DNA from: Fidelibacterota bacterium
GTDB taxonomy: Bacteria; Pseudomonadota; Alphaproteobacteria; Rhodospirillales; Rhodospirillaceae
Assembly: GCA_947476895.1 (NCBI GenBank)
Contig: CANJRX010000023.1
Span: 1-36,790 of the forward strand
Length of the DNA stretch: 36,790 nt
Direction: 5' to 3'
The stretch's first letter is position 1; each line of letters opens with the position of its first letter. The notes beneath the pieces are model-generated. The model searched no databases and had not been told where the DNA came from. It was given only the letters and a program-made list of their open reading frames with translations. Both the position numbers and the translations under genes were made by a program. Below are positions 6,067 through 10,893 of the stretch, piece after piece.

Positions 6067-8073
6067 ATGAGCGCCTGCGGGGATTTTGCTTTGGAACTTG
6101 GCGACAATCACCACGCGTCACTCTCGGAAGACGGCCGCTACCGGCTTCTGGTCGAGGCGGTCACCGACTATGCCATCTACATGCTCGACATTAATGGCAT
6201 CGTCACCAGCTGGAATGCCGGCGCCTTGCGTTTCAAAGGCTATCAAGCTGCCGAGATTATCGGCCAGCATTATTCCCGCTTCTACCCCGAAGAAGAACGA
6301 GCCTCAGGCGTCCCCACCCGCAATCTTGAAATCGCAGCTCGCGAAGGCCGGTTCGAAAGCGAAGGCTGGCGCGTTCGTAAAGACGGCACCCAGTTTTGGG
6401 CGCACGTCGTTATCGACCCCATCCGTGAGCCAGGCGGCACGCTCGTAGGCTTTGCCAAAATCACGCGAGATCTGACCGAACGCAAAAAAGAGCAAGAAGC
6501 TTTGCGGCTAAGCGAAGAGCGATTCAAGATTCTGGTTCAGGGCGTGACCGACTATGCCCTTTACATGCTCAGCCCCGATGGCCTGGTCAGCAACTGGAAT
6601 GTGGGCGCACAACGCATTAAAGGCTATGCACCTGCGGAAATCGTGGGGCACCACTTCTCGCGCTTTTATACCGAGGAAGACCGTGACGCCGGCGAGCCGG
6701 CGCGCGCCATTTCAACCGCCGCCAACGACGGCCGGTTTGAAAAAGAAGGTTGGCGCCTGCGTAAAGACGGCAGCCGCTTCTGGGCGCATGTGGTCATCGA
6801 TCCCATCCGTAATGATAGCGGCGAGATTATTGGCTTCGCCAAAATCACCCGTGACATTACCGAACGCCAAGCTGCACAAGTGGCCCTGGCGGAGGCGCGC
6901 GAAGCCCTGTTTCAATCGCAGAAGATCGAAGCCGTCGGCCAGCTCACCGGCGGAATCGCCCACGACTTTAACAACGTGCTGATGGCGGTGCTGAGCAGCC
7001 TTGAGTTAATGCGCAAACGCTTGCCCGACGATCCAAAAATCCTCGCGCTGCTCGACAACGCGGTTCAGGGTGCACAGCGCGGTGTGTCTCTGACCAAACG
7101 CATGCTGGCCTTTGCACGCCGGCAAGAGTTGACCCTAGAGCCGGTCGATGTACCGAATTTGGTGCGCGGCATGACGGAGCTGCTCGAGAGATCATTAGGT
7201 CCGTCCGTGATGATCGAGACCCGCTTTCCCCTCACCCTTGCGCCCATACTAGCGGATTCTAACCAGCTGGAACTCGCGCTGCTCAATCTTGCGGTCAACG
7301 CGCGCGATGCCATGCCCGAAGGCGGCCCACTGATCATTTCCGCGCGCGAAGAGGTGGTGACGGTCGACCACGCCAGCAAGCTTGCGCCAGGCGCATATGT
7401 TTGCCTCGCGGTCACAGACGCCGGCGAAGGTATGGATGAGCCCACGCTGCGCCGGGCCATGGAGCCGTTCTTTACGACCAAAGGGCCCGGCAAAGGCACT
7501 GGCCTGGGGCTTTCCATGGTGCACGGCGTCACCGAGCAATCGGGCGGACGTTTAATTTTGAAAAGCACTTTCGGAAAAGGCACCACGGTTGAGTTGTGGC
7601 TGCCAGCCGCGAAGCGCGCGGCCATACCGGCTCAAGCCGTCAGCCTGGCGCAACAGTCGGAAAGCGCTAAACGCGCCCTCACCGTGCTGGCCGTTGATGA
7701 TGATGCTCTGGTTCTGATGAACACCGTCGCCATGTTGGAAGAGCTGGGCCATCAGGTGCACTCCGCGATGTCTGGCCGAGACGCTTTGGAAATTCTGCGG
7801 CGTCACAAAATCGACCTCCTCATCACCGATCAGGCTATGCCGATGATGACGGGCTACGAGCTGGCCGAAAAAACCCATGCAGAGTGGCCGCAGATCCCCA
7901 TCATCCTGGCATCGGGATACGCCGAGCTTCCTGCGGGCGGTACAGCTATTTTGCATAAATTGGCGAAGCCGTTCTGGATGGACGAGCTCGCGCGCGTCGT
8001 ATCCGAAGCCACCGATCCCTCGCAACGGCCCACGCGAACGCCGCCTTACTTACGCGTTGTGGGCGGCGCTTAG
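6067..8073 (+). CDS. hybrid sensor histidine kinase, PAS-PAS-HisKA-HATPase-REC
   Basis: A 668-residue soluble kinase with no membrane segment. Two PAS domains (about 20-140 and 150-265) are close copies of each other, sharing 'TDYA.YML', 'SRFY.EE' and 'FWAHVVIDPIR', so one arose from the other by duplication. The phospho-accepting His299 lies in the H-box GGIAHDFNN. The ATPase domain shows N-box, 'TDAGEGMD' and 'GKGTGLGLSMVHG' motifs. A C-terminal receiver domain (about 540-655) has the acidic pair 'DDD' and the phospho-accepting Asp588. It should sense a cytoplasmic signal and relay phosphate through its own receiver. No separate response regulator gene is adjacent. The preceding EcfG-type promoter suggests stress induction. 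The ATG has only a weak ribosome binding site, so the exact start is less sure. Confidence 0.92.
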   Translation: MSACGDFALELGDNHHASLSEDGRYRLLVEAVTDYAIYMLDINGIVTSWNAGALRFKGYQAAEIIGQHYSRFYPEEERASGVPTRNLEIAAREGRFESEGWRVRKDGTQFWAHVVIDPIREPGGTLVGFAKITRDLTERKKEQEALRLSEERFKILVQGVTDYALYMLSPDGLVSNWNVGAQRIKGYAPAEIVGHHFSRFYTEEDRDAGEPARAISTAANDGRFEKEGWRLRKDGSRFWAHVVIDPIRNDSGEIIGFAKITRDITERQAAQVALAEAREALFQSQKIEAVGQLTGGIAHDFNNVLMAVLSSLELMRKRLPDDPKILALLDNAVQGAQRGVSLTKRMLAFARRQELTLEPVDVPNLVRGMTELLERSLGPSVMIETRFPLTLAPILADSNQLELALLNLAVNARDAMPEGGPLIISAREEVVTVDHASKLAPGAYVCLAVTDAGEGMDEPTLRRAMEPFFTTKGPGKGTGLGLSMVHGVTEQSGGRLILKSTFGKGTTVELWLPAAKRAAIPAQAVSLAQQSESAKRALTVLAVDDDALVLMNTVAMLEELGHQVHSAMSGRDALEILRRHKIDLLITDQAMPMMTGYELAEKTHAEWPQIPIILASGYAELPAGGTAILHKLAKPFWMDELARVVSEATDPSQRPTRTPPYLRVVGGA

Positions 8074-8223
8074 CCCCACTCCCCAAAATTTCTTCCCGCG
8101 TTTCCGCCCCAATGAGAAAACTTTCCTATTTCTCTACTAATTCTATAGGGAATACGTAAAAATGGGGTGCGAAGGCTACAACCCCGTGCGACTCTGCGTC
8201 TCGTTAGAAACGGAGGCGTCGCC

Positions 8224-8376
8224 ATGCTTCAAAATGTCATGCTTCACAATTCTATGATGCAAACCGCCACAGAGCTGCAACACAACTCTGTCACAAGACT
8301 GCGCGGAACAATCACGTCTCTGCGCCGTTTGGAACCAGTCACCGCATCCCGCCAAAACGGTCGATGTAAGGACTAA
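8224..8376 (+). CDS. possible small protein, 50 residues, unknown
   Basis: An ATG at 8224 follows a good ribosome binding site (ACGGAGG, 7 bp spacing) and opens a frame of 50 codons. The product is rich in Met, Asn and Gln at the N-terminus (MLQNVMLHNSMMQTATELQ) and Arg-rich further on, with one Cys near the end. I recognise no family. Its stop codon lies inside the 5' arm of the hairpin at 8370-8457, and an EcfG-type promoter match sits inside the frame. A short ORF followed by a stem-loop with a C-rich loop is the arrangement seen at cuckoo RNA loci, where the ORF is usually a DUF1127 protein; this one does not resemble DUF1127. It could equally be a chance frame in a leader region. Confidence 0.4.
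   Translation: MLQNVMLHNSMMQTATELQHNSVTRLRGTITSLRRLEPVTASRQNGRCKD
8305..8329 (+). promoter_or_regulatory. second EcfG-type promoter
   Basis: GGAAC at 8305-8309 and CGTT at 8326-8329 with a 16-base spacer is the same exact match as before the histidine kinase. Transcription would begin near 8336-8338 and produce a leader of about 150 bases, containing the whole 8370-8457 hairpin, before the 84-residue ORF. It lies inside the possible 50-residue ORF. If that ORF is real there must also be an upstream promoter. Confidence 0.55.
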
Positions 8377-8457
8377 CCAAAACCACGGGAAGAGTGCAGT
8401 TAGGTTTCTCCCGAACCTTTCCCTCCTCCCCCCGCGCTTTTCCCGTGGTGTTAGTCC
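8370..8457 (+). ncRNA. structured RNA with C-rich anti-Shine-Dalgarno loop, cuckoo/CcsR-like
   Basis: Eight bases (GGACTAAC, 8370-8377) and ten bases (ACCACGGGAA, 8382-8391) pair perfectly with 8450-8457 and 8440-8449. This gives an 18-bp stem interrupted only by a four-base bulge (8378-8381). The 48-base interior holds a small hairpin (AGGTT 8402-8406 with AACCT 8414-8418) and then an unpaired C-rich run, CCTCCTCCCCCC at 8422-8433, complementary to Shine-Dalgarno sequences. Cuckoo RNAs of alphaproteobacteria (CcsR1-4 of Rhodobacter) are stress-induced stem-loops with a CCUCCUCCC loop motif placed after a small ORF. The match in layout is good but homology is inferred. It could instead be a 5'-leader control element of the next gene. 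No U-tract follows, so it is not a simple terminator. Confidence 0.5.
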
Positions 8458-8488
8458 GATGGTTCTTATTTATGTAGCGGAGTGCGTT

Positions 8489-8743
8489 ATGACTGAAGGT
8501 TTAGGTTATGTTATCGAGCTGGCTGGCAAAGCCGCTGGTCTGGTGGTGAGAGACGGCAACCGGTTCCGCTTTTATGCGGCCGAAAAGGACTTCTTCGGCC
8601 TGGAGCGCAACCTTTTCCAGTCCCCCGGCGAGGCTGAAGACGCCTGCCGCCGTATCCTGTGGCCGGGCCGCGCGCCGCGCCCCCATAACAACAACGACGG
8701 TTACATCCCTGCCAGCTTTGCACGCCGTTTTGCGGTGTCGTGA
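8489..8743 (+). CDS. small conserved-looking protein of unknown function, 84 residues
   Basis: I chose the ATG at 8489 rather than the one at 8459 because GCGGAG lies 6-7 bp before it. The product is soluble, with a compact central segment 'GLVVRDGNRFRFYAAEKDF' and 'LFQSPGEAEDACRRI', then a Pro/Asn-rich tail. Small proteins with a similar 'VVR....FRF.AA...F..L....F.SP.EAE.A.R' pattern are familiar in alphaproteobacteria, but I know no function. Codon use and the strong terminator immediately downstream support a real gene. The EcfG-type promoter and hairpin upstream suggest stress control. The possible 50-residue ORF lies 112 bp before it. Confidence 0.7.
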   Translation: MTEGLGYVIELAGKAAGLVVRDGNRFRFYAAEKDFFGLERNLFQSPGEAEDACRRILWPGRAPRPHNNNDGYIPASFARRFAVS

Positions 8744-8796
8744 GGCTCCCAAGTCTGTCCTGACCGGTGCTTTCACGTAAGCCGGTTTACCTTAAG

Positions 8797-8826
8797 CCCC
8801 GGGTCCTCACAGACCCGGGGTTTTTT
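8797..8826 (+). terminator. Rho-independent terminator
   Basis: A perfect 9-bp stem, CCCCGGGTC (8797-8805) with GACCCGGGG (8812-8820), a six-base loop and six T residues at 8821-8826. It ends the transcript of the 84-residue ORF and separates it from the cytochrome gene. Confidence 0.92.
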
Positions 8827-8880
8827 CTGGCCCCGTTCTCCGCTAGTATCACCCACCTGGGGCTTGGGAGAGGGACTGCC

Positions 8881-10179
8881 ATGAGCATCATGAAACGCGT
8901 CGCGGGCGCCGCACTTGTTGGCCTCGCGTTTTCAACATCGGTCTTCGCCGCTGATGATACGCCGACGGACCGCGGTGAATATGTTGCCAGACTGGGCAAC
9001 TGCGTAGCCTGTCACTCAATCCCTGATGCGCCGCCGTTCTCGGGCGGCTTGAAAATGGCGACGCCTTTGGGCGCCATCTACACCACCAACATCACGCCCG
9101 ACGCCAAGACCGGCATCGGCGGTTACACCTACGAGGAATTCGACAAGGCCATGCGGCTTGGCATCGCCAAGGACGGCCACCGCCTGTACCCGGCCATGCC
9201 TTACCCTTCGTACGCCAAGATGAACGCAGAGGACATGCAAGCGCTCTACGGCTTCTTCATGAAGTCGGTCGCGGCAGCGGACGTGCCTAATAAGCCCAGC
9301 GAGATCCCAGCCCCCCTCAACATGCGTTGGCCCCTGGCGATCTGGAATTTTGTGTTTGCCGAAGACGACCGTTATGAAGCCAAAGCCGATAAGGACGCGG
9401 CCTGGAACCGCGGCGCTTACCTGGTGCAGGGCCTCGGCCACTGCGGCGCTTGCCATACCCCGCGCGGGCTGGCCTTCAACGAAAAAGGCTACGACGAAGG
9501 CGACAACGACTTCCTGGTCGGCGCGCCGCTGGATAACTGGTCAGCCTCGAACCTGCGCCAGGATGTGAATACCGGCCTTGGCCGCTGGACCCAGGAAGAG
9601 CTCAAAGAGTTCCTCAAGACCGGCCATAACAAGTACGGCACGGCCTTTGGCACCATGACCGAGGTCATCAACAATTCCGGCCAGTACATGACCGACGCGG
9701 ATATCACCGGCATCGCCACGTACTTGCGCGACATTCCGGGCAGCCGTGAAGGCAAGACCTCGCCCTTTGCCTATGACGCCGCAGCGGCGAAGGATTTACT
9801 GGCCCGTGAATACACCACCGCCGGTGCGCTGACCTATTCGCAGCAGTGCATGACCTGCCATTTGGCCGACGGCGCGGGCCACGCGCCTTACCTGCCGCCG
9901 CTCGCGGGCAACCCCATCACCGTCGACCCGCATCCGGAATCGCTGATCAACATCGTGCTCAACGGCACCATGCGCATCGTCGTGGACGGCATGCCCGATG
10001 CTTACAAAATGCCGCAGTACCGCGTGCTGCTGACGGATCAGGAAGTCGCCGACGTGGTGAGCTTCATCCGCACCAGCTGGGGTAACAAGTCGGAGAAAGT
10101 GACGGCGGAAAAGGTCGCGGAAATCCGGAAATTGACCGACCCGGCGAGTGATCAGATCCATATACTGAGGATGAAGTAA
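8881..10179 (+). CDS. tri-heme cytochrome c, alcohol/gluconate dehydrogenase subunit type
   Basis: A 432-residue protein with a signal peptide (cleavage FAA/DD near residue 22) and three heme c sites: CVACH 41-45, CGACH 188-192 and CMTCH 323-327. Three cytochrome c domains of about 140 residues with this spacing are typical of the electron-transfer subunit of membrane-bound quinoprotein or flavoprotein alcohol, gluconate and aldehyde dehydrogenases, which pass electrons to ubiquinone or an oxidase. No catalytic subunit lies next to it, so its partner must be elsewhere or it serves another donor. I placed the start at 8881, after GGGAGAGGGA, and not at the frame start at 8767, which lies upstream of the terminator. 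Confidence 0.9.
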   Translation: MSIMKRVAGAALVGLAFSTSVFAADDTPTDRGEYVARLGNCVACHSIPDAPPFSGGLKMATPLGAIYTTNITPDAKTGIGGYTYEEFDKAMRLGIAKDGHRLYPAMPYPSYAKMNAEDMQALYGFFMKSVAAADVPNKPSEIPAPLNMRWPLAIWNFVFAEDDRYEAKADKDAAWNRGAYLVQGLGHCGACHTPRGLAFNEKGYDEGDNDFLVGAPLDNWSASNLRQDVNTGLGRWTQEELKEFLKTGHNKYGTAFGTMTEVINNSGQYMTDADITGIATYLRDIPGSREGKTSPFAYDAAAAKDLLAREYTTAGALTYSQQCMTCHLADGAGHAPYLPPLAGNPITVDPHPESLINIVLNGTMRIVVDGMPDAYKMPQYRVLLTDQEVADVVSFIRTSWGNKSEKVTAEKVAEIRKLTDPASDQIHILRMK

Positions 10180-10190
10180 TCCACTCCACT

Positions 10191-10333
10191 GTCATCCTCG
10201 GACTTGTTCCGAGGATCCAGGGTAAATGGACTTTAAGGGTCGCTTGAATACGACGGTTTCCAACGCGCACTGTTGGACTTGGCAGCTTTTCTTCAATACT
10301 GCTCTGGACCCTCGCGACAAGCCCGAGGGTGAC
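10191..10333 (+). repeat. palindromic MITE-like repeat, copy 1
   Basis: Begins GTCATCCTCGGACTTGTTCC and ends with the mirrored unit ...GACAAGCCCGAGGGTGAC. Each end is about 32 bp, is itself a hairpin (CCTCGGA-CTTGT-TCCGAGG on the left) and is an imperfect inverted copy of the other end. The 143-bp unit matches copy 2 at 10915-11058 in the same orientation, including inner blocks such as TTTCCAACGCGCAC and TTCAATACTGCTCTGGA. It is non-coding and lies between the cytochrome and tspO. Such dispersed palindromic elements are common in alphaproteobacteria. Confidence 0.85.
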
Positions 10334-10401: not shown

Positions 10402-10893
10402 ATGACCACCTCTCCCCGCACACGAAACATCGGATACATCGCACTGGCCGCCGGCAGCGTTGTTGCCGCGTCGGCGATTGGCCAGCTGGCCACCTTCCCT
10501 AACCTCGCGCCGTGGTACGAAGGCCTAATCAAGCCGTCGTTCAATCCGCCCAACTGGATATTCGGGCCGGTGTGGACCAGCCTTTATGTGCTGATGGCTT
10601 TCGCGTTCTGGCGCATCCTGCGCGTGCCGGTCGGGACGCCAGGGCGTTCCACGGCGATTGCGCTATTCGCAGTTCAATTGGTCGCGAATGCTGCCTGGTC
10701 CTGGATGTTCTTCGCTGCTCACAATCCGCTGCTCGGGCTGATCAACATCATCCCGCAATTTCTGTTAATCCTTGCGACCATTGGCGCATTTCAGCCTTTG
10801 GATAAAATCGCGGCGGCCTGTTTGGTCCCGCTAGCGGCCTGGGTCTCGTTCGCCAGCGTTCTGAACTTCGAGATTTGGCGCCTGAACGGCTAG
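10402..10893 (+). CDS. tspO: TspO/MBR-family tryptophan-rich sensory protein
   Basis: A 163-residue membrane protein with five hydrophobic segments and the TspO hallmark 'KPSFNPPNWIFGPVWTSLY' at about 46-64, plus the 'NAAWSW.FF' segment near 93-101. Trp and aromatic content is high, as expected. TspO binds porphyrins and related tetrapyrroles and in Rhodobacter modulates pigment and stress responses. It sits in the membrane (outer membrane in Rhodobacter). It forms its own unit, flanked on both sides by directly oriented copies of the palindromic repeat. The ribosome binding site before the ATG is weak. Confidence 0.93.
   Translation: MTTSPRTRNIGYIALAAGSVVAASAIGQLATFPNLAPWYEGLIKPSFNPPNWIFGPVWTSLYVLMAFAFWRILRVPVGTPGRSTAIALFAVQLVANAAWSWMFFAAHNPLLGLINIIPQFLLILATIGAFQPLDKIAAACLVPLAAWVSFASVLNFEIWRLNG

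Follow-up and report, generated by a model that had tools for sequence, protein, structure and literature searches.

Rrf2-type regulators of cysteine metabolism of the CymR type are known from Firmicutes. Mycobacteria are reported to carry leaderless polycysteine ORFs in which a short upstream ORF senses the cysteine supply (Canestrari 2020). In the alphaproteobacteria, the available part of one report describes uORFC-8-2, a cysteine uORF before cysS in Rhodobacterales, usually with tandem Cys codons at positions 14-15 and with an intrinsic terminator in the leader (PMC8632094). Among small RNAs, excerpts of three papers (PMC10253847, PMC8625941, PMC10746234) present CcsR1-4 as sRNAs processed out of the 3' UTR of a gene for a DUF1127 protein, with an RpoHI/RpoHII promoter and a terminator at the 3' end, and the alpha-r14 RNAs as three hairpins carrying CCUCCUCCC. 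The works nearest to a tandem of SAM-II-like RNA and a Cys leader, among the matches listed, are PMC9373788, PMC1273637, PMC10117765, PMC4239095 and PMC12452182. The excerpts of PMC9373788, PMC1273637 and PMC4239095 make no mention of a Cys leader behind SAM-II, and neither this arrangement nor the genus version described below, which lacks that RNA and has a C-loop hairpin, was found in titles or abstract openings of open-licence PMC articles, among the matches listed.

The locus described here lies in a window, the whole stretch of DNA that was analysed, of 36,790 nucleotides. Positions 8130-8826 are best explained as one short transcription unit with a putative Rrf2-type operator, a leader, a spacer with a C-loop hairpin, an 84-aa gene and a terminator. 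We hold with moderate confidence that the region is an attenuator which senses cysteine and belongs to a sulfur regulon of the Rrf2 type, the leader controlling the 84-aa gene. The unit is composed as follows:

8130..8153, plus strand: palindromic operator-like element TTCTCTACTAATTCTATAGGGAAT, putative site of an Rrf2-type sulfur regulator (pattern and matrix matches)
8212..8216, plus strand: GGAGG, Shine-Dalgarno of the leader ORF, seven bases before the ATG (read from the sequence)
8224..8376, plus strand: leader ORF of 50 aa ending in NGRCKD, with stop TAA at 8374-8376 (Arg-Cys invariant in nine genus leaders; position matches Cys-rich leaders class-wide)
8362-8367, plus strand: Arg-Cys codons CGA TGT of the leader ORF (read from the sequence)
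8370..8377, plus strand: lower helix, 5' arm, overlapping the leader stop codon (8 bp, perfect with 8450-8457)
8378-8381, plus strand: 4-nt bulge of the stem (predicted fold)
8382..8449, plus strand: upper hairpin, arms 8382-8397 / 8434-8449 and 36-nt loop (fold, genus comparison and covariation)
8402..8418, plus strand: inner hairpin AGGTTT-CTCCC-GAACCT inside the loop (TTTCTCCC common to genomes G000, G009 and G012)
8422..8433, plus strand: anti-Shine-Dalgarno-like run CCTCCTCCCCCC in the loop (C-rich loop in 7/10 genus loci)
8450..8457, plus strand: lower helix, 3' arm (fold)
8478..8482, plus strand: CGGAG, Shine-Dalgarno of the 84-aa gene (read from the sequence)
8489..8743, plus strand: 84-aa gene, family YVIEvxGxxAGiVVrexxxFRFfA... 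(conserved relatives)
8794..8826, plus strand: intrinsic terminator 3' of the 84-aa gene, a 12-bp stem running into six T (fold, dG -23.1, z -4.8)

The scan of 8000-8900 for consensus promoters and terminators listed none, and no sigma-70-type match, although the terminator at 8794-8826 is plain by folding. Upstream of the unit, the window has a gene at 6067-8073 for a full PAS/histidine kinase/receiver protein; by eye, G009 has in the corresponding place only a PAS-domain coding fragment (locus L002, 1001-1190). Downstream lie a cytochrome c gene (from about 8881) and a TspO/MBR gene (10402-10893), and a similar cytochrome c ORF also comes next in L002, L004, L005 and L006, again by eye.

The hairpin is real. 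It folds at -43.2 kcal/mol. Dinucleotide shuffling, repeated 200 times, gave -20.6 +/- 3.0 and never a value as low (z -7.56). The initial annotation was right about a stem-loop directly 3' of a small ORF; the stem-loop is strong and covaries, and the ORF looks translated. Its ORF of 50 codons is present at 8224-8376 with the stop (TAA, 8374-8376) inside the stem, and the anti-Shine-Dalgarno-like run that it saw in the loop is exposed (CCTCCTCCCCCC, 8422-8433). It was right about a single interruption of four bases but not about a stem of 18 bp, since by fold the stem has 24 bp, made up of 8 bp (8370-8377 / 8450-8457) and 16 bp (8382-8397 / 8434-8449, some of them G-U) on either side of one 4-nt bulge. 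The 36-nt loop (8398-8433) contains 17 C and 4 G; within it are a small hairpin of 6 bp, whose own loop reads CTCCC, and the run CCTCCTCCCCCC. Between the C-run and CGGAG, the Shine-Dalgarno of the 84-aa gene itself, only 4 bp could be drawn by eye, and this pairing was rejected.

We detected a hairpin with a C-rich loop in seven of the ten genus loci with an unbroken gene (G000, G009, G016, G001, G012, G003 and G006), and the whole-spacer folds of these seven have z values of -3.0 to -5.0. The other three (G002, G011 and G015) have no C-loop hairpin or C-run, and their spacers fold at z -1.2, 0.0 and -1.4; for G003 and for the broken copy in G007, the point from which the fold was computed had been chosen manually. 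In that copy (L022, G007:C265) the 84-aa gene is broken by an in-frame stop, and the Arg-Cys leader and the hairpin are both absent. The initial annotation had held that loss of the loop in close relatives would speak against it; the loop is lost in three of these loci but kept in seven. The exact motif CCTCC occurs in six of the ten, modestly over the chance expectation of 1.94, so that the motif itself is weak evidence.

In the stem, four of the eight outer pairs have changed on both sides across six sequences, a count that 3 of 500 shuffles reach, and slid controls give at most one two-sided pair. The measures of two-sided change are reached by 3 and 0 of 500 shuffles, and a count by further pair types is not over shuffles (183/500). 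Covariation, the absence of which would likewise have spoken against the initial annotation, is present by the measures of two-sided change. The count used six of the seven hairpins and omitted G001, which was misplaced in the MAFFT alignments (those of the seven whole hairpins and of the arms only with G001), and whose own stem pairs at 12/12 positions; a figure of 100% paired is so by construction because the arms were chosen as paired beforehand. The covariance model of the hairpin, resting on three sequences that are all among its own matches, found it in 4/73 family genomes, each time at this locus and under strict filters that may lose weak copies. Without filters, the model picks up G001 at 24.5 bits and G006 at 16.3 bits (E 0.29) as well but still misses G003, whose hairpin is counted by shape and place. 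As the hairpin is a near-palindrome, the model matches both strands.

The initial annotation had placed this RNA close to the cuckoo/CcsR family, and that membership is without support. It had itself remarked that the ORF does not look like the usual DUF1127 protein and that only one hairpin is present, and we agree on both counts: the leader ORF has no Pfam match, and one hairpin was found. DUF1127 (PF06568) was found in none of the 12 genus genomes searched (of 19, own genome included) and in 6/7 more distant genomes. The loop does match the cuckoo pattern CCUCCUCCC through CCTCCTCCC at 8422-8430, a match that is not exact in relatives. Cuckoo RNAs come as several hairpins or in clusters; here there is a single hairpin, which the covariance model finds in 4/73 family genomes, each time at this locus. 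The C-loop hairpin follows a small ORF, but the unit continues through the 84-aa gene to the terminator at 8794-8826, and we read the hairpin as part of the 5' leader of a conserved gene. The evidence does not identify the C-loop RNA as a cuckoo RNA: its ORF is not DUF1127, no DUF1127 was found in the 12 genus genomes, there is one hairpin, and the 84-aa gene comes before the terminator; we rejected membership on the lack of DUF1127 matches, hairpin number, copy number and genomic setting. The Rfam scan of the window gave no family at its cut-off, and a permissive scan of 8080-8860 gave seven weak matches, of which six fell at 8743-8836, where the terminator lies, and the seventh matched the hairpin's minus strand.

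The hairpin could also be cut from the leader transcript so that its CCUCC/CUCCC loops pair, in the manner of cuckoo-type RNAs, with the Shine-Dalgarno sites of other mRNAs, whose translation sulfur limitation would then lower. The window loop exposes two C-rich stretches, and the C-rich loop is kept in 7/10 genus loci despite different stems. Moreover, G003 keeps the operator, the C-loop hairpin and the gene without an Arg-Cys leader, and the hairpin may therefore act without the leader. We nevertheless regard a trans-acting RNA as unlikely, given a lone hairpin confined to a single locus in all four genomes with a match, no terminator directly behind it, a C-run missing from G002, G011 and G015, and CCTCC in only 6/10 loci where 1.94 are expected.

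The reading of the small ORF as a putative leader peptide with a cysteine near its end is well supported by comparison across genomes, and the ORF is presumably translated. The nine genus leaders range from 11 to 57 aa and have in common only a start and Arg-Cys, then two to six residues, with Arg-Cys encoded by CGA TGT in all nine. This leader is absent from two of the 11 genus loci, namely G003 and G007, the latter with its gene broken by a stop. That of G011 is present and fails the Shine-Dalgarno part of the rule given below, and that of G016 reads RCSWQTCF and starts with TTG. Beyond the genus, the same position often holds a Cys-rich leader, with ends such as MCCR, LCCCR, RTCCCRT, MRCC and GTCC. 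A fixed rule, applied to the 360 nt upstream, asks for a Shine-Dalgarno-like start and for either two Cys among the final 8 residues or RC among the final 6. It found leaders at 8/11 genus, 3/5 family/order and 17/29 class loci, where dinucleotide shuffles gave 0.2, 0.2 and 1.2, respectively. Of the 43 profile matches outside the window, the 29 whose DNA was available make up the class loci. Twelve of the 29 class loci fail the rule, including L056 and L061, which by eye have Cys-rich ORFs lacking the required Shine-Dalgarno letters; L055, L057, L059 and L076 have no leader by the rule. The leader ORF is missing from two gene tables examined that cover the site (Azospirillum sp. B510 and Microvirga ossetica), in a collection whose tables are incomplete. 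We infer that the genus leader descends from the class-wide Cys-rich leaders or shares an origin with them.

In the attenuator that we favour, sulfur shortage would open the promoter, at which an Rrf2 protein would bind the operator at 8130-8153, and ribosomes would then translate the leader. With Cys-tRNA plentiful, ribosomes would finish and leave, allowing bases at or just behind the Arg-Cys codons to pair ahead of the Shine-Dalgarno of the 84-aa gene, and with this helix formed the gene would probably be poorly translated. With Cys-tRNA scarce, a ribosome would stall at TGT, three codons before the stop, and the helix would remain open and the 84-aa gene be translated. Given the footprint of a ribosome, a stall at the Cys codon would keep the Arg-Cys helix open in every locus. 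The window leader has a single Cys codon near its end where known attenuators have tandem Cys, which counts against an attenuator.

At six of nine loci, the segment that spans the Arg-Cys codons and the stop can form a perfect helix of at least 6 bp with the stretch before the gene, compared with 1.04 expected. In four of the nine (0.17 expected), the CGATGT codons face exactly ACATCG, and the 3' arm of the helix lies at -19 to -23 relative to the start codon. The helix of G011 uses ATGTAAC at -21, and that of the window uses GGACTAAC at -39, two bases behind the Cys codon and 32-39 nt before the ATG; G016, G012 and G006 have no helix of 6 bp. Predicted spacer folds favour it at three of these six, with mean pair probabilities of 0.98 (window), 0.71 (G001) and 0.68 (G011), and do not favour it at the other three (G009 0.15, G015 0.11, G002 0.25). 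The window helix leaves the Shine-Dalgarno uncovered, and any effect there would consequently have to be exerted indirectly, by way of spacing, mRNA stability or the C-rich loop. As a model, a helix that serves as a cysteine-responsive translational switch is plausible.

The same loop, C-rich and G-poor with its 17 C and 4 G in 36 nt (8398-8433), could instead be a loading site for Rho, the leader working through Rho-dependent termination and not through a block of translation. We consider this improbable, as the hairpin that encloses the C-rich stretch is very stable, relatives without the C-run retain leader and gene, and a ribosome stalled at the Cys codon would leave the C-rich stretch uncovered. 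That the small ORF encodes a functional peptide, its hairpin merely protecting or separating the messages of a two-gene operon, would suit its good Shine-Dalgarno and spacing and a partial similarity (...TIxSxxR...) among genus leaders, but is very improbable for peptides of 11 to 57 aa in which only Arg-Cys is invariant besides the start.

The 84-aa ORF at 8489-8743, with its own Shine-Dalgarno and 3' of the hairpin, had no place in the initial annotation. Its profile found relatives in 11/19 genus, 14/73 family and 18/317 order genomes, and a wider profile found them in 36/385 genomes drawn from the class, the own genome being counted throughout; the weakest relatives, G072 and G189, were not recovered when their loci were re-scanned. 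Named relatives are from Azospirillum (12 plasmid records) and Microvirga (3), where they are called 'hypothetical protein' if annotated at all. Relatives from the same class that stand close to Azospirillum place the genus in the Alphaproteobacteria. The window protein has no significant match in Pfam, NCBIfam or PHROG, and the family profile matched no solved structure significantly among PDB sequences. Pfam identities for the family were rejected, the best being Diox-like_N (0.004) and DUF6894 (0.0063), each in 1/15 members.

From its neighbours in some relatives, the 84-aa family looks sulfur-linked. In Azospirillum sp. B510, the order is a SAM-II core, a leader ending in CMMRSGLCCR, the 84-aa family gene, metQ, metN, metI and metQ; in Microvirga ossetica, a SAM-II core and a leader ending in MTTCRAC stand before the gene, and an oxidoreductase and an ABC transporter behind it. 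Pfam searches of proteins flanking five relatives returned ABC_tran with NIL (two of MetN type), SBP_bac_11, TauD, NMT1_2 and Rrf2, and by eye a MetQ-like protein follows the family gene in G066. There are also neighbours not related to sulfur, such as the LysR-like regulators seen by eye in L067, L068 and L073, and in the genus the neighbour of the 84-aa gene is a cytochrome c gene and no sulfur gene.

We found that the 24-bp palindrome-like element ahead of the leader recurs, with at most 3 mismatches, in 7/8 genus genomes searched (not in G016), once in each and twice in G003; the reversed control of the pattern gave 0 matches. The second copy in G003 precedes a Porin_O_P gene; some 0.9 kb upstream, an Rrf2 gene begins. 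Four Rrf2 genes are present in the own genome, and one of them (L094) shares 68-73% identity with two other Rrf2 proteins, one close to the gene in G078 and the other close to the G003 porin. A position weight matrix found a 24.2-bit site before an ORF that by eye resembles a sulfate-binding protein and that precedes the L094 Rrf2 gene. As the G003 porin site is among the nine from which the matrix was made, it is not independent; the independent sites are that of L094 (24.2 bits) and a further 21.0-bit site near the G003 porin. In the window, no other site reaches at least 9 bits except the reverse strand of the operator itself (13.1), none was found at this threshold around the remaining three Rrf2 genes of the own genome, and the maximum over six loci in five other genomes was 12.4 bits. 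The element at 8130-8153 is, by motif and position, a probable, if putative, binding site of an Rrf2-type sulfur regulator.

In G003, the two operator-like sites lie near 10233 and 10660 of L085 (G003:C7), by the Porin_O_P and Rrf2 genes, and may possibly point to a wider sulfur-limitation regulon. The sulfate-binding-like ORF of L094 (G000:C22) is short, with 168 codons from stop to stop, and its resemblance, as judged by eye, is confined to the front part of these proteins; it may be truncated.

Outside the genus, many relatives carry a further conserved element upstream, CCGCGG.ATTTGA...CAGCTTGCGCCGCG.CACCAAACGCTAAAGCGCC, which we detected at 18/29 class, 2/5 family/order and 0/11 genus loci. 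This SAM-II-like RNA is present in 14 of the 17 class loci that have a leader by the rule. In a permissive scan, Rfam SAM_alpha (RF00521) matched 6/24 loci on the right strand at 20.7-25.6 bits (E 0.06-2.7), and at the Rfam cut-off of 36 it matched 0/15 and 0/20 relative loci and nothing in the window; because the scores are below the cut-off, we term the element SAM-II-like. The RNAs concerned (L048, L053, L054 and 17 further loci) have the SAM_alpha core and score well below the Rfam cut-off where they score at all, and they may be a sub-class of SAM-II.

A covariance model of the SAM-II-like RNA, with a hand-written structure and 17 of 20 copies, replaced one with an automatic structure. 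It matched 79/372 class genomes, source genomes included; in the genus it gave weak matches only (20.7-29.4 bits, 5/19 genomes), none of them at this locus or in the own genome. When loci were chosen by the SAM-II-like RNA, a Cys leader lay within 200 nt in 18/30, compared with 0.33 expected, and these loci are not all independent of those chosen by gene, since 18/30 also carry the 84-aa family. Among SAM-II-like loci without the family, a Cys leader was found in 5/12 where 0.15 were expected. Of those five leaders, G450, G550 and G631 are convincing and MHRCPPSP is probably noise, and by eye a metN-like ABC gene comes next in G550 and G631.

A wider scheme would join these elements into a three-input sulfur switch, widespread in alphaproteobacteria and carried by a single leader RNA, with an Rrf2-type repressor at the promoter, a SAM-II aptamer for SAM and a Cys leader for cysteinyl-tRNA. 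In the freshwater genus, the riboswitch would have been lost and replaced by the hairpin of the cysteine switch, which would also be released and act in trans, cuckoo-like, on Shine-Dalgarno sites. Taken whole, this scheme is speculative and we doubt that it holds. If SAM and cysteine are indeed read on one leader RNA, this would be so in many alphaproteobacteria, including Azospirillum and Microvirga, and the genes behind the dual control would be those for methionine transport or for a conserved small protein that has no name. Such loci would then offer a test bed for combined riboswitch and leader-peptide control and an orphan protein family tied to sulfur. The locus would also, if the attenuator reading is true, show how a hairpin with an anti-Shine-Dalgarno loop can come about in an RNA that is not of the cuckoo family.

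Compared with known systems, the locus resembles the CymR systems in having an Rrf2 protein encoded next to a sulfate-binding-like protein, a porin or an 84-aa family member, and in its palindromic site, but differs in that the pair of regulator and site is here a putative one, deduced from position and motif. Like the mycobacterial polycysteine ORFs, it has a short upstream ORF that would sense the cysteine supply; it differs from them in belonging to a different phylum. With the cuckoo/CcsR and alpha-r14 RNAs, as far as the excerpts describe them, it shares a C-rich anti-Shine-Dalgarno loop, a variable stem and an adjoining small ORF, whereas here there is no DUF1127, one hairpin, a position in the 5' leader of a gene and one locus per genome. 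Like uORFC-8-2, in the available part of its report (PMC8632094), it has an alphaproteobacterial leader ORF with conserved Cys codon(s) and a proposed ribosome-mediated attenuation; unlike it, Arg-Cys lies near the end, a sulfur-linked small gene stands downstream, and no terminator comes before the gene. In contrast to SAM-II (SAM_alpha, RF00521) leaders, the genus has no such RNA at this locus, but in likeness to them many relatives in the class carry a SAM-II-like RNA, some of them ahead of methionine-transport genes.
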